Positions 15,215-30,925 of a stretch of DNA of 37,373 nucleotides are shown piece by piece. How positions within the stretch are numbered: position 1 is the stretch's first letter; the number at the start of each line of letters is the position of its first letter. The notes below the pieces were generated by a model, which did no database searches, had not been told where the DNA came from, and worked only from the letters and a program-made list of their open reading frames with translations. Origin of the DNA: Candidatus Tanganyikabacteria bacterium (GTDB lineage Bacteria > Cyanobacteriota > Sericytochromatia > S15B-MN24 > VGJW01); contig VGJW01000024.1 of assembly GCA_016867265.1 (NCBI GenBank), positions 1 through 37,373 of the forward strand, read 5' to 3'. The translations under genes were made by a program, and so were the position numbers.

Positions 15215-17071
15215 TCACGGCGACAGGGCCACGTCCCCCTCGGCGGAACGCAGCAGCACCGTACTCCGTGGTCCCCGCGTGGCCCGCAGCCAGACCATGC
15301 GCCTTCCCGCGGGCAAGCGGGTCGTCGCCTCGGCCTCGGCCTGTCGGGACGTCCGGTCAGCCACGACCAACCAGCCCCCCGACCAGCGCAGGCAAGCGAC
15401 GCCATGACGGCCGCGGCGCAATCGGCCTTGGCCGCCGAGGCCGCCCGCGCCACGTCGGACCAGGCGATCGAGAGGCCACGGCCCAGGATGGACCTGTCGC
15501 CCCAACACCACGACGGAGACTCGGCGCAAGCCACGTGCCTGAAGCGCTTGCACGGCAGCACGCCCCAGGCTTGCTCCGGTACGCGGGCTGCGGGGCAGCA
15601 GCCACAGCAAGGGCTCGGATGCGGCACCCGGCAGCAGCCAGGCCGTGCCGGACCCGGACGATGCCACGATCGTCGGCAGCAGGATGGGCGCCGCAGGGGA
15701 GAAGGCAAGCGAGGCGACCAGCGGCAACGCGAGCGCGAGCGGCAGGGCCCGCGGCCGCAGGCGACCGGTGACGGCAGCCCCCATGAGCCCGCCCAGCACG
15801 ATCGCACAGCCTGGCTCGGAGGCGAGGGGCAGCAACCATGGAGCACCCGGAAGCTGCGACAAGGGCTGGAGGACCCGCAGCACCAGGCCGGCAGCGAGGC
15901 CCAGTGCGGGCCCGGTCCATGTGTACGGATCCAGGCCCGTCACGCCCAACACGCAACGCAGGAAGCCGCCGAGGGTCAGTAGCGTGACCCCTATGTCAAG
16001 AAATGGTCCGGCCAGCAAGCCCCAGGGAGACACGGCCCCGAAAACGGCCAGTTGCAAAGGTAGGCACCAGGCCTGGGCCCAGAGCCCGGGCCACCACCAC
16101 GACAGCGGCCGCCACGGGCACGGAGGCGCCGACAGGATGCCCCAGGTCGCCAGCGTACTGAATGCGAGGCCGAGCGATGTCGCGAGACCGGGCGACATGA
16201 CGAGCAGGCCGATGACACCCAGCAGCAGGGCCGGAGCCGGGGCCGGCCATCGTCCGGTGGCCCGGGCCAGCACCATGGCCGTGGCCATCGCGGCTGCCCG
16301 GGATACGGCGGCATCGAAACCGCACAGGCCGGCATAGACCCAAGTTCCGAACCCAAGAAAGAGGCCCGCGAGCCACGGCGCCGCGGCCAAGGGACGAAGC
16401 AAACGGGCAAGCAAGCCCACGAGCAGGGAGACCTGAAAGCCGCTGACAGCAAGGATATGGCTCAGCCCCAGGTCCCGGAAGCGACGGATGTCGCCCTCGA
16501 CCATGGCCGGGGTCCCGGCACCGAAGAGCAGACTGCGCAAGAAGCCCGCCTCGCGCTGCGGCATGGCACGGGTCGCTGCTCGGACCACCTTGGCCTCGAG
16601 TCGCGCACGAAGGAAATCAGGGTCCCACAGGCGAGGCAGACCGCGAAGCATCCATGTCCTGCAGGCCAGCCTCGGGAGGCCTCGGTCCGCACCCGCCAGC
16701 AGGCGCCCCCGAACGTGCAGGACGCGTCCGGGCCAAGGTCCTGCCCCCGGGTGGCGAGCCAGGACCACTTGGACACGGGGCCCCGGGGGGAGGATCTGGC
16801 GAACCTCGAGCGCGACCTGGCCCCACGGAAGCATCCGGGGCTCCTCAAGAACCCGCACGAGACCCGTCCAAGGCCCCGGCAGGAGAGGAGGGTCGGGCCG
16901 CGGAGCCACGAGCAACCCGGTCAGGACGCCGCAGGTCACGAGCAGCGATACCTTGCCCACCTCCCGCGGCCGCATCGGCTGGAACAACGCCGCAGCCACC
17001 AGCGAGGCGGCGACGAGCAGGCCTGCGACGACTCCCACGGCAGGCCAGGCGAGGGTCGCCCACAGCCCCAT
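15215..17071 (-). CDS. comEC: ComEC-like DNA uptake channel with a degenerate C-terminal domain
   Basis: ComEC forms the inner-membrane channel for single-stranded DNA during natural transformation. The competence-domain core is clear: LLFGAGTPAMVEGDIRRF followed by LGLSHILAVSGFQVSLL, then many hydrophobic segments. The N-terminal part has membrane helices and an OB-like region (VRVLEEPRMLPWGQVALEV). The last 130 residues lie where ComEC normally carries a metallo-beta-lactamase domain, but the HxHxDH metal-binding motif is absent; the aligned stretch reads VVVLGRQVHPGPW. From ATG 17071 it has 618 residues. The start is uncertain: the frame stays open to 17281, but earlier starts overlap comEA, and TTG codons at 17125 and 17083 are alternatives. 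It is co-transcribed with comEA. Confidence 0.82.
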   Translation of the reverse strand: MGLWATLAWPAVGVVAGLLVAASLVAAALFQPMRPREVGKVSLLVTCGVLTGLLVAPRPDPPLLPGPWTGLVRVLEEPRMLPWGQVALEVRQILPPGPRVQVVLARHPGAGPWPGRVLHVRGRLLAGADRGLPRLACRTWMLRGLPRLWDPDFLRARLEAKVVRAATRAMPQREAGFLRSLLFGAGTPAMVEGDIRRFRDLGLSHILAVSGFQVSLLVGLLARLLRPLAAAPWLAGLFLGFGTWVYAGLCGFDAAVSRAAAMATAMVLARATGRWPAPAPALLLGVIGLLVMSPGLATSLGLAFSTLATWGILSAPPCPWRPLSWWWPGLWAQAWCLPLQLAVFGAVSPWGLLAGPFLDIGVTLLTLGGFLRCVLGVTGLDPYTWTGPALGLAAGLVLRVLQPLSQLPGAPWLLPLASEPGCAIVLGGLMGAAVTGRLRPRALPLALALPLVASLAFSPAAPILLPTIVASSGSGTAWLLPGAASEPLLWLLPRSPRTGASLGRAAVQALQARGLRRVSVVVLGRQVHPGPWPLDRLVRRGAGGLGGQGRLRRGRHGVACLRWSGGWLVVADRTSRQAEAEATTRLPAGRRMVWLRATRGPRSTVLLRSAEGDVALSP

Positions 17072-17108
17072 CAGTACGAACAACTGGGGCGCCCGCAGGA
17101 CCTCCGCA

Positions 17109-17606
17109 TCAACGGTACGAGACAAGCGGCCCGATCCGTTCGAGGCGACGGGGACCGAGGCCCTTGAGGCCCTGTAGATCTCCCGGACCGTGCAGCCGTC
17201 CGCCCCTGGCACGCCTCCTGTCGAGGATGGCCTTGGCAAGCCCCGGTCCGATGCCGGGCAGGCGGTCCAGAGCGTGGGCATCGGCGTGGTTCAGGTCGAG
17301 TGGCCAGCCCGGCGGAGGCGACGAGGCTCGCCGTTGACGTCCGGGACGTCGGGGTCGTGCCGGTTGCCGCAGGGCTTGGGGGCGCACCAGGCGAACGGCC
17401 ATGCCATCGGCCAGGACCGTCGCCAGAGGAGGCACGACGACCCAGCCGGTCGGCACGGGGGTGCGCTGGCTGCGCAGCAGGTCGGCGACACGCGCACCGG
17501 GTGCGATGCGCACAAGACGGCCGGGTCTCCCCTGCGCCTCGAGAACGACGGAGACACGCGTGTCGAGGATTTGCGTCAACAGAACGAAGGCAAGCACGGC
17601 GGGCAC
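17109..17606 (-). CDS. comEA: ComEA-like DNA-binding competence protein
   Basis: ComEA is a membrane-anchored receptor that binds incoming double-stranded DNA and feeds ComEC. From GTG 17606 the protein has 165 residues. It begins with a short hydrophobic anchor (PAVLAFVLLTQIL). An SLBB-type domain follows (VVLEAQGRPGRLVRIAPGAR, then VADLL and LADGMAVRLV), then an Arg/Pro-rich linker. The C-terminal helix-hairpin-helix pair reads LDLNHADAHALDRLPGIGPG and GLKGLGPRRLERIG. An AGGAGGT ribosome-binding site five bases before GTG 17606 decides the start over the upstream ATGs at 17666 and 17630. It overlaps or nearly abuts comEC, forming the usual comEA-comEC operon. No other competence genes are in the window. 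Confidence 0.85.
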   Translation of the reverse strand: MPAVLAFVLLTQILDTRVSVVLEAQGRPGRLVRIAPGARVADLLRSQRTPVPTGWVVVPPLATVLADGMAVRLVRPQALRQPARPRRPGRQRRASSPPPGWPLDLNHADAHALDRLPGIGPGLAKAILDRRRARGGRLHGPGDLQGLKGLGPRRLERIGPLVSYR

Positions 17607-17610
17607 GGGA

Positions 17611-17617
17611 ACCTCCT
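17611..17617 (-). promoter_or_regulatory. Shine-Dalgarno site setting the GTG start of comEA
   Basis: AGGAGGT on the minus strand is the best ribosome-binding site in the region. It lies four to five bases before GTG 17606, whereas the in-frame ATGs at 17630 and 17666 have none. Confidence 0.6.
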
Positions 17618-17659
17618 GGGGATGGCCCATGCTGCACCCGAAAACCACACGTCGTCCAT

Positions 17660-17688
17660 ATGTCAACCATAAGGATTCGTGGTATGAT
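17660..17688 (+). promoter_or_regulatory. Promoter of the ylqD-rimM-trmD operon
   Basis: An extended -10 (TG-G-TATGAT, with TATGAT at 17683-17688) is preceded by ATGTCA at 17660-17665 with a 17-base spacer. The -35 matches the consensus at four of six positions. It lies in a locally AT-richer stretch between comEA and ylqD and leaves a leader of about 27 bases with a Shine-Dalgarno CAGGAG at 17707-17712. Confidence 0.6.
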
Positions 17689-17721
17689 CCGATATCCCTT
17701 TCAAGTCAGGAGTGCCCTGAG

Positions 17722-18162
17722 ATGGTCCAGTCCCTGAATCTCCGCCGGCAAGTCGTCATCAAGACGATCGTGACCGAATCCTTCAAGCAGCAGGCGATGG
17801 CCGAACTGCAGCAGGCACTCGGCCAGCTCGACGAGCAGGCTCAGGAGCTCGAGTTCCAGGCCAAGCGGGCCGTCGAGGAACTGCAGAAGCGCCAGCCGGA
17901 AGCGCTGCCGCAACTCGAGGCCCAGATCAACGAAGACCGCCAGCGCCTGTCCGCGAACAAGGCAGAGTTGCTGCAGCGCCTGCAGGTCTTCGGTCAGCTG
18001 TCGCTGGGTCAGGAATTCGTACAAGGCAACGTCGAGAACTTTGTCGACGTGTCCGTGGGCGATGCCTTCTACGAGAAGATGGCCGCGCCGGAGATCGTCA
18101 TCAAGGACGGCGTGGTCATCGAGATCCGGACCTTCGAGAGCGGTCGGATCGCGCGCGTCTGA
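17722..18162 (+). CDS. ylqD: YlqD family protein
   Basis: A 146-residue protein of the YlqD family, whose function is unknown. Family members in Firmicutes and Cyanobacteria sit near rimM and trmD, as here. The N-terminus is beta-rich (LNLRRQVVIKTIVTESF). A long, charged, Gln/Glu-rich coiled coil follows at about residues 27-95 (QQALGQLDEQAQELEFQAKR onward), and the C-terminus is again beta-rich and conserved-looking (VSVGDAFYEKMAAPEIVIKD). The ATG at 17722 is set by CAGGAG nine bases upstream; the frame is open further upstream but lies within comEA antisense. Context suggests a link to ribosome or tRNA maturation, which is inference only. Confidence 0.8.
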   Translation: MVQSLNLRRQVVIKTIVTESFKQQAMAELQQALGQLDEQAQELEFQAKRAVEELQKRQPEALPQLEAQINEDRQRLSANKAELLQRLQVFGQLSLGQEFVQGNVENFVDVSVGDAFYEKMAAPEIVIKDGVVIEIRTFESGRIARV

Positions 18163-18172
18163 TCAGCGCGGC

Positions 18173-18715
18173 ATGGCGGATCGCTTCGTCGTCGGGCGCA
18201 TCCTGAAGACCCATGGGGTCCGGGGCGAGCTCAAGGTGACCTCCGTGGCCGGACTACCCGGTCGCTACAAGCCCGGCATGGCTGTCCGGGCCGCGTGGCC
18301 TGATGGTCGGACACGGGATCTGGTCATCCGTACAGCCCGAGCGGCCGGGGATCTCGCCCTCGTGGCCTTCGAGGGCTTCCCGACGCCCGAGGAAGCCGCC
18401 ATGCTCAGAGGTGCCGAACTCACGGTCCCGCAGGACCAGGCGCTTCCCGTCCGCACCGGCGGCGTGCGCTTCGGGGATGTCGTCGGCTTCACGGTCCGCC
18501 ATGTCTCGGATGACCGGCCTCTCGGCACGGTGCGTGCCGTCGTCACGGCCGTCCAGGACCTGCTCGAGGTCGATGCCGGTCGTGATGAGCCCGTACTCGT
18601 GCCGTGGGTCCCTCCTCTGGTCCCCCGGGTCGATGCAGGCTCCCGCACCCTGTGGGTCGATCCGCCCGGCGGCCTGTTCGACGACGACGCCATCACCGTG
18701 GACTCCGCGGAGTGA
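18173..18715 (+). CDS. rimM: Ribosome maturation factor RimM
   Basis: RimM assists 30S subunit assembly by binding ribosomal protein S19. The 180-residue protein begins MADRFVVGRILKTHGVRGEL, the conserved RimM N-terminal beta-barrel signature, and continues through FEGFPTPEEAAMLRGAELTV. The C-terminal PRC-barrel domain includes FGDVVGFTV, VPWVPPLVPRVD and the closing WVDPPGGLFD. It starts ten bases after ylqD and its stop overlaps the trmD GTG start (GTGA). The rimM-trmD order is the classical bacterial arrangement. Confidence 0.93.
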   Translation: MADRFVVGRILKTHGVRGELKVTSVAGLPGRYKPGMAVRAAWPDGRTRDLVIRTARAAGDLALVAFEGFPTPEEAAMLRGAELTVPQDQALPVRTGGVRFGDVVGFTVRHVSDDRPLGTVRAVVTAVQDLLEVDAGRDEPVLVPWVPPLVPRVDAGSRTLWVDPPGGLFDDDAITVDSAE

Positions 18716-19551
18716 CACAGCCGCCGGTCGTTCCGCGCCTCGACGTGGTGACGCTCTTTCCGGGCATGTTCGCGGGCCCCTTCTCCGAGAGCCTCGTGGG
18801 CAAGGCGCGGGAACACGGTCGGGTGGACCTGCGCGTCCACGACATGCGGGCCCATGCGACCGACAGGCACGGCACCGCCGACGACCGGCCCTTCGGTGGC
18901 GGACCGGGCATGGTCCTGAAGCCCGACATCGTCTTCCGTGCCGTCGAGTCCCTGGACTTCGCGCCGGGCACACCCGTCATCATGCCCTGCCCCCAAGGCC
19001 GCCGGTTCGACCATGCCACGGCCGTCCGCTGGGCTTCGCTGCCCCGCCTCGTCTTCATCTGCGGCCACTACGAGGGAATCGACGAGCGCGTGCGGGAACA
19101 TCTCGTCACCGAGGATGTCTCGCTGGGCGACTACGTCCTGACGGGTGGCGAACTGGCCGTGATGGTCATGGTCGATGCCCTGCTGCGCTTCGTGCCGGGG
19201 GTGGTGGGCGACGAGGCCTCCCCCCATGAAGACAGCTTTGCCGACGGGCTTCTGGACTGGCCACACTACACCCGGCCGTCCTCGTTCAGGGGGTGGGACG
19301 TCCCCGAGGTACTGCGCTCGGGCGACCACGGGGCCGTCGGGCGCTGGCGGCGCCAGCAGGCGATCCTGCGGACGTGGGCGAGGCGCCCCGACCTGCTGGC
19401 CCATGCCCCGCTCACGAAGGCGGAGCGATTCTGGCTGGAAGACCTCGTCGAAGCCGGAACCACACCGGAGGCGGCGTTACGAACCCTGACCGAGGGGTAC
19501 GATGGCCGGGTCGCGCGGTGTCCGCCCCGTCCGCCCGAAAGCCATCCGTGA
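18712..19551 (+). CDS. trmD: tRNA (guanine-N1)-methyltransferase TrmD
   Basis: TrmD methylates G37 of tRNA next to the anticodon and prevents +1 frameshifting. The 279-residue protein begins near LDVVTLFPGMFAGPFSES. It has DDRPFGGGPGMVLKP (58-71), the SPOUT knot motifs GHYEGIDERV (118-127) and LGDYVLTGGELAV (138-150), and the catalytic-Asp region EDSFADGLLDWPHYTRP. I chose GTG at 18712 because it overlaps the rimM stop as GTGA and gives the family length; no ATG fits better. The C-terminal 20 residues are Pro/Arg-rich and run into the start of the next gene. Confidence 0.94.
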   Translation: MTQPPVVPRLDVVTLFPGMFAGPFSESLVGKAREHGRVDLRVHDMRAHATDRHGTADDRPFGGGPGMVLKPDIVFRAVESLDFAPGTPVIMPCPQGRRFDHATAVRWASLPRLVFICGHYEGIDERVREHLVTEDVSLGDYVLTGGELAVMVMVDALLRFVPGVVGDEASPHEDSFADGLLDWPHYTRPSSFRGWDVPEVLRSGDHGAVGRWRRQQAILRTWARRPDLLAHAPLTKAERFWLEDLVEAGTTPEAALRTLTEGYDGRVARCPPRPPESHP

Positions 19552-19970
19552 TCAACAAGATTCTGACGAACTTCGTCGTGACCGAGGACGGGATCCAGAG
19601 GATCCAGAAGCTCCTGCAAGGTCTGGTCCACGACGTGGATGCCGTCGCCGCGCTCCTGATCGAAAAGTCCGGACAGGTGCTGGCGACACAGGGCGACACC
19701 ATGGGCCTCGACTGCCAGGCCATGGCCTCGCTCGTGAGCGGTGCCTTCGCCTCGACCCGTGCCGTGGCCCGGATGATAGGCGAGACCGAGTTCCAGGCCA
19801 TGTTTCAGCAGGGCGAGACGGCCTCGGTTTTCATGTACGCCTTGGGTACCAACGACATCCTTGTGGTGGTCTTCGATGACCAGACCAAGACGGGCCTCGT
19901 CAAGGTCCAGGCCCAGCAGACGGCCGTGGCGCTGACCAGCGCCATCAACCAGATGCACCACGCGGAGTAG
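19548..19970 (+). CDS. Roadblock/LC7 domain protein
   Basis: A 140-residue single-domain protein of the roadblock/LC7 (MglB-like) superfamily. The pattern is a first helix (EDGIQRIQKLLQGLVHDVDA), a strand pair (AVAALLIEKSGQVLATQG), a helix with ASLVSGAFASTRAVARMIG, then strands containing TASVFMYALGTNDILVVVFD and a final helix. Such proteins dimerise and often regulate Ras-like GTPases such as MglA. No small GTPase gene is in this window. The start is GTG at 19548, overlapping the trmD stop (GTGA), so it is translationally coupled to tRNA modification. The partner and role are unknown. Confidence 0.82.
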   Translation: MINKILTNFVVTEDGIQRIQKLLQGLVHDVDAVAALLIEKSGQVLATQGDTMGLDCQAMASLVSGAFASTRAVARMIGETEFQAMFQQGETASVFMYALGTNDILVVVFDDQTKTGLVKVQAQQTAVALTSAINQMHHAE

Positions 19971-19991
19971 GACGGCCTCTCTGGCCCGGGA

Positions 19992-20000
19992 TGCTATGAT
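19992..20000 (+). promoter_or_regulatory. Extended -10 element upstream of folK
   Basis: TG-C-TATGAT carries the same TATGAT hexamer and TGn extension as the ylqD promoter. It lies between the roadblock gene and folK and would give a leader of roughly 50 bases ending in the strong GGGGGAGG site. No clear -35 is seen 17 bases upstream, which is common for extended -10 promoters. Confidence 0.5.
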
Positions 20001-20042
20001 GGCGCCCGGGCAAGGGGGCCTTCCGACACCGCAGGGGCCCCC

Positions 20043-20050
20043 GGGGGAGG
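20043..20050 (+). promoter_or_regulatory. Shine-Dalgarno site setting the TTG start of folK
   Basis: GGGGGAGG ends five bases before TTG 20056. In-frame ATGs at 19996 and 19999 lie upstream of it and overlap the putative -10, so TTG is the likely start. Confidence 0.65.
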
Positions 20051-20055
20051 CGCAC

Positions 20056-20547
20056 TTGGCGACAGTCTACATCTCGCTGGGTTCAAACGTCGGGGACCGG
20101 GCCGACTTCGTGACCCGGGCCATCATCAAGCTCTCCAAGCATCCCCAGATCGAGGTCCGCAGCCACTCGGAGCTCTACGAGACGGAACCGCTCGAGATGC
20201 CCGATCAGGAATGGTACGTGAACGCCGTTGTCCGCATCGAGACCCAGCTGGCGCCCATGTCGCTGCTCGATGCCCTGCAGGGCCTCGAGGCCGAGATGCA
20301 GCGCGAGCAGACCGTCACCTGGGGACCAAGCGCCATCGACCTCGACATCCTGCTCTATGACGATCTGCTGGTCGCGGAACCGCGCCTGATCATCCCGCAC
20401 ATCCGGATGCATGACCGGGCCTTCGTGCTCGTCCCCCTGGCCGAGATCGCACCGGACACCGTGCACCCCATCCTGGGCCTCTCGGTCGAGGACATGCTGG
20501 GCGGGCTCAAGACCACGACCGTCGTCCGGCCACTCGCCCACTCCTGA
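20056..20547 (+). CDS. folK: 6-hydroxymethyl-dihydropterin pyrophosphokinase, with an Arg-to-Ser change
   Basis: FolK transfers pyrophosphate from ATP to 6-hydroxymethyl-7,8-dihydropterin in folate synthesis. From TTG 20056 it has 163 residues. It begins MATVYISLGSNVGDR, has ELYETEPL (39-46) and YVNAVVRIET (54-63), and ends the core with WGPSAIDLDILLYDD (89-103). Asp95 and Asp97 match the magnesium ligands of the E. coli enzyme. The family motif is WGPRTLDLDI, so the Arg at position 92 is Ser here, and the usual RxR just before it is replaced by REQTVT. No folP or folB is nearby. The gene is convergent with fmt, with three bases between the stops. Confidence 0.9.
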   Translation: MATVYISLGSNVGDRADFVTRAIIKLSKHPQIEVRSHSELYETEPLEMPDQEWYVNAVVRIETQLAPMSLLDALQGLEAEMQREQTVTWGPSAIDLDILLYDDLLVAEPRLIIPHIRMHDRAFVLVPLAEIAPDTVHPILGLSVEDMLGGLKTTTVVRPLAHS

Positions 20548-20550
20548 TCC

Positions 20551-21492
20551 TCAGCCCAGCCGGGCCCCCGCGACCAAGGCGGGCAGCCCCCGTGCCGCCT
20601 CGACGGCAGGCATCGCCTTCCTGCCCGGGATCTGGACCCGCGACAAAAGCAGCATCCCCGTGCCGCACGCCACCCACCACCCCTCCGCATCGACACGCAC
20701 CACCGTGCCGGGGGACGCGTCCTCGGCAGGCAAGAGCTCGGGCTGGGCGGCATGGACCTTGATCTCGAGCCCTGCGAATCGGGTCCGGGCCCCGGGCCAG
20801 GGCAGCAGACCCCGGATACGCGCGTCGAGGACAGGCGCGGCGAGCGACCAGTCTATCTCGGCCTCAGCCTTGTCGAGCTTGGGCGCAAGTGTGGCGCGAG
20901 CCTGATCCTGCGGCTGCTCGGGCCGTTCCCCGGCCAACCAGGGCCCGAGCTCGCGGACGAGCAGATCCGCCCCAAGCAACGCGAGGCGCTCCGCCAACTG
21001 CCCTGCCGTCTCGCGGACCCCGATGGCCGTCCGCGCCTCGGCAATGACAGGCCCCGTGTCCATGCCCTCGTCGAGACGCATCAGGCTGATTCCCGACTCG
21101 GCATCACCGGCCATGATGGCTCGGGCCACAGGTGCGGCGCCCCGATGCCGGGGCAACAGGCTCCCGTGAATGTTCAGGCAACCATGTGCGGGCATCGCGA
21201 GGACATCGGCCGGCAACAGCTGACCGAAAGCCACCACGATGAAGGCATCCGCTCCCAGGGCCTGCAGGTGCGCCTTGACGACCTCGTCCCGACGCAGGCG
21301 GTCGGGTTGCAGCACCTCGAGCCCCGCCTCGAGCGCGCGGACCTTGACCGGACAAGGCTGCAACTGCTGGCCGCGCCCGCTCGGACGGTCCGGCTGGGTC
21401 ACCACGGCCAGCACGTCGTGACCGGCGGCCAGCAAGGCCTCGAGGGCGGGCACGGCGAAGGCCGGAGTCCCCATGAAAACGAGTCGCGCCAT
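20551..21492 (-). CDS. fmt: Methionyl-tRNA formyltransferase
   Basis: Fmt formylates initiator Met-tRNA with 10-formyltetrahydrofolate. The protein has 313 residues from ATG 21492 and begins MARLVFMGTPAFAVPALEAL. The catalytic region reads CLNIHGSLLPRHRGAAPVA with the conserved Asn and His, followed by MRLDEGMDTGPVI with the catalytic Asp. The C-terminal OB domain has IRGLLPWPGARTRF and closes with GLPALVAGARLG. GGAGGT lies four bases before the ATG, which rejects the GTG codons two positions earlier. It is a single gene here, without the usual def neighbour, divergent from the phospholipase D-like gene and convergent with folK. Confidence 0.94.
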   Translation of the reverse strand: MARLVFMGTPAFAVPALEALLAAGHDVLAVVTQPDRPSGRGQQLQPCPVKVRALEAGLEVLQPDRLRRDEVVKAHLQALGADAFIVVAFGQLLPADVLAMPAHGCLNIHGSLLPRHRGAAPVARAIMAGDAESGISLMRLDEGMDTGPVIAEARTAIGVRETAGQLAERLALLGADLLVRELGPWLAGERPEQPQDQARATLAPKLDKAEAEIDWSLAAPVLDARIRGLLPWPGARTRFAGLEIKVHAAQPELLPAEDASPGTVVRVDAEGWWVACGTGMLLLSRVQIPGRKAMPAVEAARGLPALVAGARLG

Positions 21493-21548
21493 CACCACCT
21501 CCGATTGCAGGTAAAGTCGAGCTTAAATCACGTCAGTCCTTTGGGGAA

Positions 21549-28543: not shown

Positions 28544-29719
28544 ATGTCGCAGGACACCCTCTCCACTACCCCGCCATCCGCACGCCCCGCGGCTGATGCG
28601 CTGCCGCCGCCCATCCCGGCCCGAACCCGTTTCTGGCGCCGTTTCCGCAAGCACCGTCCGGCCTTCATCGCCCTGTGGCTGCTTCTGGCCGTCTACCTCG
28701 TGATGGCGCTGGCCGACGTCTTCGCCCCCTACTCGCCCCTCTCGGAAGACCGCAACCGGGCCTTTCAGCCGCCGGCCGAGATCCACTTGCGTGATGATTC
28801 GGGCAACTGGCACGCCCCGTTCATCTACGACCGCAAGAAGCAGGACGACTACTCGGCCATTTTCGAGGCGGGCGCACCCGCCACCATGACGCTTGGCGAG
28901 TGGCAGGAGGACCGAACGGTCCGACACAACTTGGCCTTCTGGGTCAAGGGCGAACCCTACCGCATCCTTGGCCTGGTTCCGGGCGACCGCCATGTCTTCG
29001 GCATCGAGGGCCAGGCGGCGCCCATCTACCTGCTGGGTGCCGACAATGCCGGACGGGACCAGTTCTCGCGACTGCTCTTCGGCGCACGCGTCTCCCTGAC
29101 GGTCGGCATCATCGCGCTGCTGATCGTCATCCCGGTGGGTACGCTCGTAGGGGGTGCCGCCGGGTATTTCGGCGGCTGGATCGACACCGTGCTGATGTGG
29201 CTCGTCGAGACGGTCCTGGCCTTCCCTACCTTCTACCTGCTGCTGGCGCTTTTCGGCGTCACCTACAAGTGGGACATCACACCCACCCAGCGCTTCTACG
29301 TCATCACGATCATCCTGTCCTTCCTGGGCTGGGCCGGCCTCGCCCGCGTCATCCGGGGCATGGTGCTGTCGCTGAAGCATCAGGAATACATCGAGGCCGC
29401 ACGTGCGGCGGGTGCCGGCCACCTCTGGATCATCACCCGCCACCTGCTGCCCCAGACGGCGACGTGGGTCGTCATCTCGGTCTCGCTGTCCATCCCGGGC
29501 TACATCTACGGCGAGAGCGTGCTCTCGCTGCTGGGTCTGGGCGTGCAGCCGCCGGATGCCTCGTGGGGCAACATGCTCGAGCCGGCCCTGAATGTCTCGG
29601 ACCTGGTCACGCACCCATGGCTGCTGGCGCCCGGCGTGGCCATCGTATTCGTGACCGTCGCGTGGAACTTCCTTGGGGATGGCCTGCGGGACGCCTTCGA
29701 CAGCAAGCGACGGGTCTGA
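28544..29719 (+). CDS. ABC transporter permease, DppC/OppC type, with enlarged periplasmic loop
   Basis: A 391-residue permease partner of the preceding gene. The N-terminus is Pro-rich and cytosolic, with RFWRRFRKHRPAF leading into helix 1 (about 40-60). A periplasmic segment of about 110 residues (roughly 61-180) follows before the core, much longer than in E. coli DppC, and includes DYSAIFEAGAPATMTLGEW. The core has LLGADNAGRDQFSRLLFGAR, five membrane helices and the EAA loop EYIEAARAAGAGHLWIITRH. The GLGVQPPDASWGNML signature near the end is typical of the family. No ATPase genes follow, so the energising subunits must come from elsewhere. Confidence 0.9.
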   Translation: MSQDTLSTTPPSARPAADALPPPIPARTRFWRRFRKHRPAFIALWLLLAVYLVMALADVFAPYSPLSEDRNRAFQPPAEIHLRDDSGNWHAPFIYDRKKQDDYSAIFEAGAPATMTLGEWQEDRTVRHNLAFWVKGEPYRILGLVPGDRHVFGIEGQAAPIYLLGADNAGRDQFSRLLFGARVSLTVGIIALLIVIPVGTLVGGAAGYFGGWIDTVLMWLVETVLAFPTFYLLLALFGVTYKWDITPTQRFYVITIILSFLGWAGLARVIRGMVLSLKHQEYIEAARAAGAGHLWIITRHLLPQTATWVVISVSLSIPGYIYGESVLSLLGLGVQPPDASWGNMLEPALNVSDLVTHPWLLAPGVAIVFVTVAWNFLGDGLRDAFDSKRRV

Positions 29720-29758
29720 CAGACACCAGCGAGCCTCGTGCCCGGGAACAACGATATC

Positions 29759-30925
29759 ATGAATATGGCAAACTCACGACTGGGCAGATGGGTCGCGACG
29801 ACGGCGCTGCTGGCGACGAGCCCCGGTGGCATTTGGCGGGCGGAAGCCCACGAGGGTGAAACACGCAGCCGCTGGGGGGTCCCCGTCATCCAACGCGGGG
29901 CAACAGGCTGCTACACCATCAGCCGCACGCAGTTCCACGAACGCCTCGTCTACGAACTGCCCCGAATCTTCATCTATGCCCGGGCCGACAACAGCACACA
30001 GCGGGACCGATGGAGAGAGGGCTACCGCACGCCTCGGCAGTTGTTCTTCGGCAAGTGGTTCCAGAACCAGCGCGGCCACAGATATGCCGAGCACATCGCG
30101 ACCGCACTGCGCCGCAACTCGGAACTGCTCGATACCGAGTTGCCACCGGGCTCCGCGCTGGTGTTCACCGAGCACGGCCAGATCGTCGGTCGGGTGCCCA
30201 CTTCGTCCGTGGCCAACCGCGGCAGCTACAACGCCGCTGCGGGCGCCGGCTACTACCACTACAGCGAAGGCTTCACCGTCAACGCCAATGGTCGCGACCT
30301 ACCCGTGGTTGCCATGGCACTCTCGAGTCCCGTCGCCCTCGATCTGGACCACTCGGGCCGCATCGAGGTCACGGGCAAAGCCTCGGGCTACATCCGCTTC
30401 GATACCGCCAAGGGCTTCAATCCGACGGATTCCGTCCTATTCGACCTGAAGGCCGTCGGCAAGCCCGGACGCTTCGAATGGCTCAAGGGTGGCGGCGACG
30501 GCTTCCTCGTGGATGACCGCGAGGGTCGCGTGACGCGCAGCGCGGCCGAGAGCAAGCCCCTCGACGGCAACGACCTGTTCGGCGGCCAGCGATTCGGGAA
30601 CGGCTATGCCAAGCTGGCAGCCTTGTTCGATCGCGAAGCCCGCGTCGCCAGCGCCGGCAAGCGCCTGCCCCCGGGGCTGGGTGTCCTGAAGGGTGCGGAG
30701 CTGGATGGGCTCAAGGTCTGGCGGGACCTCAACCACGATGCCCTGCCGCAAGCGGATGAGCTCTCCGACCTGGCGAGCCTCGGCATCACCGAGTTGGGCT
30801 CGCGCATCCAGTGGGTGGAAAGCCGCGAGGACCTACGCATGACGTCATGGTTCGTCCAGAACGGCAAGCGCCACCTGACTGAGGACGTCTGGTTCGCCGA
30901 AGGACCGGAGCCGTCGGCGTCGTGA
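29759..30925 (+). CDS. Secreted protein with RTX-associated/EF-hand-like region
   Basis: An exported protein of 388 residues with an N-terminal signal peptide ending near IWRAEA-HE. Residues of the middle part (about 35-190) match nothing I recognise. The C-terminal half follows the pattern seen in many large RTX/hemolysin-type proteins: VALDLDHSGRIEVTG, then DGFLVDDREGRV, LDGNDLFGGQRFGNGYAKLA and WRDLNHDALPQADELSDLAS leading to LGITELG. DLNHDALPQADE fits an EF-hand calcium loop, with Asp, Asn, Asp and Glu at positions 1, 3, 5 and 12. No glycine-rich nonapeptide repeats are present. The start could be GTG 29738, ATG 29759 or ATG 29765. Its stop overlaps the SDR start (GTGA). Function unknown. 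Confidence 0.7.
   Translation: MNMANSRLGRWVATTALLATSPGGIWRAEAHEGETRSRWGVPVIQRGATGCYTISRTQFHERLVYELPRIFIYARADNSTQRDRWREGYRTPRQLFFGKWFQNQRGHRYAEHIATALRRNSELLDTELPPGSALVFTEHGQIVGRVPTSSVANRGSYNAAAGAGYYHYSEGFTVNANGRDLPVVAMALSSPVALDLDHSGRIEVTGKASGYIRFDTAKGFNPTDSVLFDLKAVGKPGRFEWLKGGGDGFLVDDREGRVTRSAAESKPLDGNDLFGGQRFGNGYAKLAALFDREARVASAGKRLPPGLGVLKGAELDGLKVWRDLNHDALPQADELSDLASLGITELGSRIQWVESREDLRMTSWFVQNGKRHLTEDVWFAEGPEPSAS

Follow-up and report, generated by a model that had tools for sequence, protein, structure and literature searches.

The roadblock/LC7 gene that follows trmD in the window (the whole stretch of 37,373 nucleotides analysed, on contig C24) encodes an orphan MglB homolog, a paralog of the MglB encoded beside mglA on another contig of the same genome. 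MglB proteins act as off-switches for a GTPase of cell polarity. Orphan MglB homologs are already a known class, and the window gene is filed there. On the reading that we consider somewhat probable, this protein without a tail is a second MglB for the same MglA, possibly one member of a mixed dimer. Its position behind trmD most probably reflects inherited gene order, which would give co-expression with housekeeping genes, and not a role in translation. The source genome is a MAG of 2.85 Mb, 98% complete and related to Sericytochromatia; such organisms are not known to be photosynthetic.

Table 1. Features of the trmD locus in the window.
Feature	Position	Strand	Remarks
comEC-like gene, divergent neighbour	15215..17281	-	PF03772; kept in 5/5 loci reaching so far, window included
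sigma-70-like promoter match upstream of ylqD	17660..17688	+	consensus match, not proof
ylqD	17722..18162	+	PF11068
rimM	18173..18715	+	TIGR02273 above cut-off; start inferred
trmD, tRNA m1G37 methyltransferase	18712..19551	+	NF000648, TIGR00088 above cut-off; start inferred
4-base GTGA overlap, trmD stop/roadblock start	19548..19551	+	this genome only among seven loci
orphan MglB-type roadblock/LC7 protein	19548..19970	+	140 aa, GTG start
folK	19996..20547	+	PF01288, TIGR01498
fmt, convergent neighbour	20551..21498	-	PF00551/PF02911; kept in 6/7 loci, window included

The preliminary description of this DNA had placed a roadblock/LC7 gene here, overlapping trmD by four bases, preceded by ylqD, rimM and trmD and followed by folK, and this arrangement was borne out. 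The neighbouring genes were identified by Pfam and NCBIfam matches, and the TGA stop of trmD at 19551 falls inside the GTGA. An overlap of the same kind joins rimM and trmD if trmD starts at GTG 18712, an inferred start in a frame open from 18604. The enzyme domain of folK starts at residue 25, and its true start may be TTG 20056. A single promoter-like match was found in 17400-20700, just upstream of ylqD, from which the genes may be co-transcribed; as shuffles averaged 0.3 such matches, this is weak evidence.

The Robl_LC7 profile of Pfam (PF03259) matched the 140-residue protein at E 7.7e-11, its 42 bits lying well above the cut-off of 23. The closest PDB sequences in a phmmer search were the MglB proteins of M. 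xanthus (E 1e-20) and T. thermophilus (E about 1e-12). An AlphaFold (AF2) model built on a 25-row alignment reached a pLDDT of 88.4, with the predicted order helix, two strands, helix, three strands, helix. Foldseek ranked MglB first, and comparison of the model with solved structures gave Z scores of 21.3 for M. xanthus MglB, 20.6 for T. thermophilus MglB and 12.6 for MglC. The profile score and the roadblock fold together place the protein in the roadblock/LC7 superfamily. Against the MglB equivalog model NF052242 it scored 71.6 bits, under the curated cut-off of 200, as did two mglA-adjacent MglB proteins of relatives (56.8 and 68.6 bits). Being homologous to MglB and lying more than four genes from any mglA, it counts as an orphan MglB in the sense of PMC4316618, as far as the definition is given in the available part of that paper, and, not lying beside mglA, it does not belong to the mglA-coupled MglB proteins.

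Orthologs were found in nine of the 10 genomes of the order that were sampled, with 65-78% identity. The tenth genome, G004 (86% complete), did not yield trmD either. Across four pairs of orthologs, divergence was far greater at the third codon position than at the first and second, and dN was 0.09-0.16 with dS of 0.83-1.33 (dN/dS about 0.07-0.19), which shows a protein under purifying selection and not a chance open reading frame. The mean core identity was 75.7% among the nine orphans versus 62.4% among the coupled MglB proteins of the order, while mean identities to the outgroup MglB were close to each other (44.3% for the orphan, 41.5% for the coupled copy).

A profile search of 386 genomes sampled from the phylum (E up to 0.001) gave matches in the 18 members of the class and in 0/368 other genomes. 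The nine orthologs scored 252-267 bits and all other places at most 137. The orphan paralog was found in none of the other eight class genomes, where roadblock matches had at most 48% identity, the 48% belonging to a G016 fragment of 74 residues. In these genomes the best roadblock match adjoins mglA, except in G016, where it is split over two contig ends, one of them with mglA. In a 36-row tree, the nine orthologs formed one clade with support of 96/99; 14 of the 33 inner branches of this tree, its deep forks, are unsettled, and the tree program warned of long branches for L072_b2, T. thermophilus, L067_b2, M. xanthus and L006, and also of possible false joins. The named records that bear the ortholog are Candidatus Sericytochromatia S15B-MN24 CBMW_12, Cyanobacteria bacterium UBA8530, NC_groundwater_1444 and RYN_339, and bacterium BP5.bin90; these five are cases already counted above.

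The absence of an MglA-like GTPase, which had been noted in the preliminary description, holds for the window and fails for the genome. Genome-wide searches with an Arf profile and with MglA (E up to 0.001) gave no match in the window; matches were confined to contigs C3 and C20, the latter within an apparent IF-2, and a GTPase hidden in the window was therefore rejected. On C3, an operon of a DUF4388 gene, mglB and mglA occupies 139677-141683, with the coupled mglB (140641-141093) between the DUF4388 gene and mglA (141105-141683). Besides this intact MglA, the search of the genome that had been suggested earlier returned a divergent MglA-like protein at C3:29533. Three Robl_LC7 matches were present in the genome, namely the orphan, C3:140686 and C1:103410, and a protein search added a fourth, divergent roadblock domain at C3:29062. 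The MglA of the genome aligned to M. xanthus MglA without gaps over 191 residues, and R53, T54, Q82 and the helix-5 lysines K181 and K185 were all kept; the roles of these residues are described in the available parts of PMC11016934 and PMC6785124. Five matches to secretion/pilus-type ATPases were also found, two of them within an apparent pilB-pilT-pilC cluster.

This MglA, MglA1, was detected in eight of the nine genomes that bear the orphan paralog; in the ninth (G003, 64% complete) neither MglA nor the coupled MglB was found. The MglA1 of the window genome (L006:7106-7684) was 87-93% identical to that of the other genomes of families f1-f3 and 75-78% identical to that of f4, which is no closer than other families of the class (74-81%). 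Assignment of the partner by correlation of pairwise distances was dropped, because its ranking flips once f4 is left out: with f4, the orphan gave rho of 0.91 with MglB1, 0.79 with MglA1 and 0.70 with TrmD, and without f4, rho was 0.79 with TrmD, 0.65 with MglA1 and 0.52 with MglB1. Since a likely GTPase partner lies elsewhere and has its own regulator, the orphan would be a second, specialised copy of the regulator rather than a translation factor, possibly with a part in polarity. The partner operon with its own roadblock gene is one of two findings that the preliminary description had named as jointly speaking against its reading; the other, loss of the gene's place beside trmD, does not apply, as that place is conserved in three of the four families.

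The two paralogs differ most clearly at the C-terminus. All nine coupled MglB proteins of the order carry a tail of 18-23 residues beyond the conserved tyrosine that follows the last helix, and all nine end in LF (seven DLF, two DNLF), whereas none of the nine orphans has a tail, each ending 3 to 7 residues past the conserved M136. Among the coupled MglB proteins of the other class families, none of seven ends in LF and five have other tails; the G010 protein carries one of about 20 residues, without LF, and the tails of the four f6 proteins are shorter. These seven stand for the eight genomes, as the 25-row alignment (A1) omits G016 with its split MglB. The association of tail and paralog may trace to one shared change within one branch, and it does not amount to statistical proof. 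In the AlphaFold model of the coupled MglB, the last 20 residues were predicted at a pLDDT of about 47-50, and three residues close to the terminus form a helical turn; this low-confidence prediction fits a tether with a docking end and proves nothing.

In M. xanthus, according to the available parts of PMC6785124 and PMC11016934, MglB residues 147-157 follow a disordered stretch and form a helix that docks on MglA and gives exchange activity, with contacts that include MglB D154 and F157 with MglA K185 and K181, and the face of the MglB dimer provides GAP activity. The MglB homodimer there is reported to meet MglA asymmetrically, the tail of one protomer doing the exchange. By analogy with Myxococcus, an orphan devoid of the C-terminal tail would have GAP-type contacts and lack the tail-dependent exchange contact. 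The tail contrast, taken with the roles of tail and dimer face in M. xanthus, leads us to propose that one tailed and one tail-less MglB serve one MglA, the orphan supplying a GAP-type contact and no tail-dependent nucleotide exchange.

A more specific form of this proposal is a split dimer, in which the tailed copy encoded beside mglA would give the exchange contact and the tail-less copy encoded beside trmD or the ATP synthase genes would be the other protomer; MglA would then meet an asymmetric heterodimer, and the ratio of the two copies, partly set by a housekeeping operon, would tune GAP against exchange activity. We regard this form as tentative and somewhat unlikely.

The contact residues give a mixed picture. 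A68 and A72, at the positions of A64 and G68 in M. xanthus MglB, which we take to matter for MglA contact, are kept in 9/9 orphans. The M. xanthus switch-I contact residues N37 and R98 are mostly replaced in the orphans, which counts against the preferred reading: the N37 position is S in eight of nine (S41 in the window) and N in one, and the R98 position is N, Q or K (N102 in the window). As the nine coupled paralogs of the order also lack N37 and R98, these residues were rejected as a discriminator between the paralogs. A statement in the available part of PMC11112851 that an orphan MglB has lost its GAP activity on MglA weighs against a direct GAP role, and the divergent roadblock/MglA-like pair at C3:29062 and C3:29533 could provide the partner instead.

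The same part of PMC11112851 describes the orphan MglB as interacting with the coupled MglB homodimer and acting through it. This favours an MglC-like adaptor, a roadblock dimer that is stacked on MglB and controls where MglB is placed or how active it is, with no action of its own on MglA, a reading that we consider unlikely. The orphans have a basic residue at the K14 position and K119 (9/9 each), which correspond to two of the three MglB positions that meet MglC in M. xanthus, as given in the available part of PMC10329633. The surface retained is, however, that of MglB and not that of MglC. The FDI motif is absent from the beta1-beta2 turn of the orphans, where KSGQ (the window protein included) or KNGQ stands instead, and this absence, with the lower Z score for MglC than for MglB, led us to reject an MglC-type identity.

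That another GTPase is the partner, such as the divergent C3:29533 protein or a second type of MglA, appears distinctly unlikely. An extra MglA-like gene is present in G000, G001, G005, G006 and G009, but all five have their own roadblock gene just upstream, and G002, G007 and G008, all of which bear the orphan, yielded no second MglA. The pair in the window genome (G000, C3:29062-29373 and 29533-30084) has identities of 24% and 29%; the P-loop region of its GTPase is altered (GPVGSGKASN), and this GTPase gave no match in Pfam at 0.001. The second MglA type of G001, G005, G006 and G009 (loci L064, L067, L069 and L071; 53-60% identity) lacks the K185 lysine.

The preliminary description had also seen in the gene order a hint of a link between a GTPase- or polarity-regulating module and translation, or of expression that goes along with growth rate. 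Such a link could run through TrmD/RimM or through regulation in common. The order itself was only partly upheld in relatives: the roadblock gene follows trmD, adjoining rimM-trmD, in 7/7 genomes of f1-f3 that have both genes, but in f4 (2/2 genomes) the ortholog is preceded by thiF and a lipoprotein-like gene and has ATP synthase genes downstream of it, and no roadblock gene adjoins the f4 trmD. In G007 the ATP synthase genes follow the ortholog directly; in G008 a peptidase-like gene, kinase genes and a regulator lie between. The ThiF, one kinase and ATP synthase subunits a and alpha of f4 were identified by Pfam, and the rest by eye and tblastn. That f4 keeps the ortholog without any linkage to trmD supports inherited order as the explanation of its place elsewhere.

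In f1-f3, folK lies near the roadblock gene in six of the seven loci, window included. Pfam matches place folE and folP between the two genes in f2 and folP between them in one f3 genome, and by eye a folB-like open reading frame is also present in f2 and in that f3 locus. The spacing between trmD and the roadblock gene is -4 bases in the window only, and 14, 48, 49, 85, 151 and 151 bases in the six relatives, where an alternative start would shorten one of the gaps of 151 (G006) to 64.

The GTGA overlaps of the window (that of rimM/trmD with an inferred start), the sole promoter-like site upstream of ylqD and an mglBA operon directly upstream of rplS in f4 are consistent with the link to translation. 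The opposite-strand neighbours comEC and fmt are nonetheless conserved as well, and with the overlap confined to this genome, the neighbourhood is weak evidence for such a link. Synteny of the segment holds across three families and fails in the fourth, so the trmD-roadblock pair is not singled out, and we regard a role in translation as improbable. A conserved neighbour should thus be taken with caution, as it need not indicate a functional link when the whole segment is syntenic.

The usual gene after trmD is rplS, which encodes ribosomal protein L19. In 15 of the 18 class genomes the two lie on different contigs, and in the other three at least one of them was not found, so displacement of rplS by the orphan cannot be shown, and the idea that the orphan occupies its place was left. 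In f4, rplS comes directly after mglA (L061:7452-8566, L062:302-1365); in four f1-f3 loci (G000, G001, G002 and G006) it is clustered, as judged by eye, with rpiB-like and glyA-like genes. In each of the four families, then, some mgl gene adjoins a gene related to ribosomes or tRNA, though the arrangements differ, and this may be chance. The neighbours of trmD and rplS were read outside four f7 loci, where crude calling of open reading frames gave almost no genes.

A drifting duplicate with little function, for which the orphan position and the restriction to one order might speak, is disfavoured by the core identity and dN/dS values given above and is scarcely credible.

A tail-less second MglB that acts on the same MglA thus remains our preferred reading, and a clade with tailed and tail-less MglB and one well-conserved MglA offers a natural test of splitting the two roles between genes. 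In the limited library searched, no report was found on a trmD-adjacent position or a tail split of MglB, nor any joining Sericytochromatia and MglA, and the titles and abstract openings retrieved for roadblock and trmD contained nothing relevant. An assignment to the conservon protein CvnB of actinobacteria was rejected, since the neighbours here are trmD and folK and not a CvnA kinase, CvnC and a CvnD GTPase.

Over the roadblock domain, the orphan resembles the MglB proteins of M. xanthus and T. thermophilus in fold and sequence; M. xanthus MglB, as described in the sources cited, is mglA-coupled and has a C-terminal exchange helix, and the orphan has neither. As with M. xanthus MglC, a second roadblock protein exists besides MglB in one genome, but the orphan differs from MglC in the missing FDI motif and the lower structural score. 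A closer parallel is Snodgrassella mglB-3 (PMC11112851, 2024), likewise an orphan mglB far from an mglA locus that has its own mglB, in which a host-adaptive mutation is reported to alter type IV pilus motility. The Snodgrassella genome has two coupled mglB genes, unlike the present one, and the available part of that paper mentions no trmD neighbour. Orphans account for 328 of the 749 MglB homologs surveyed by Wuichet and Sogaard-Andersen (2014, PMC4316618), and, according to the available part of that survey, none had been experimentally characterised as of 2014. The window protein resembles the orphans described there in being MglB-like, with a single roadblock domain encoded away from mglA; it differs from orphans in general, as far as they are described there, in its clade-wide ortholog, its constant position behind trmD in three families and the tail contrast with the coupled copy.
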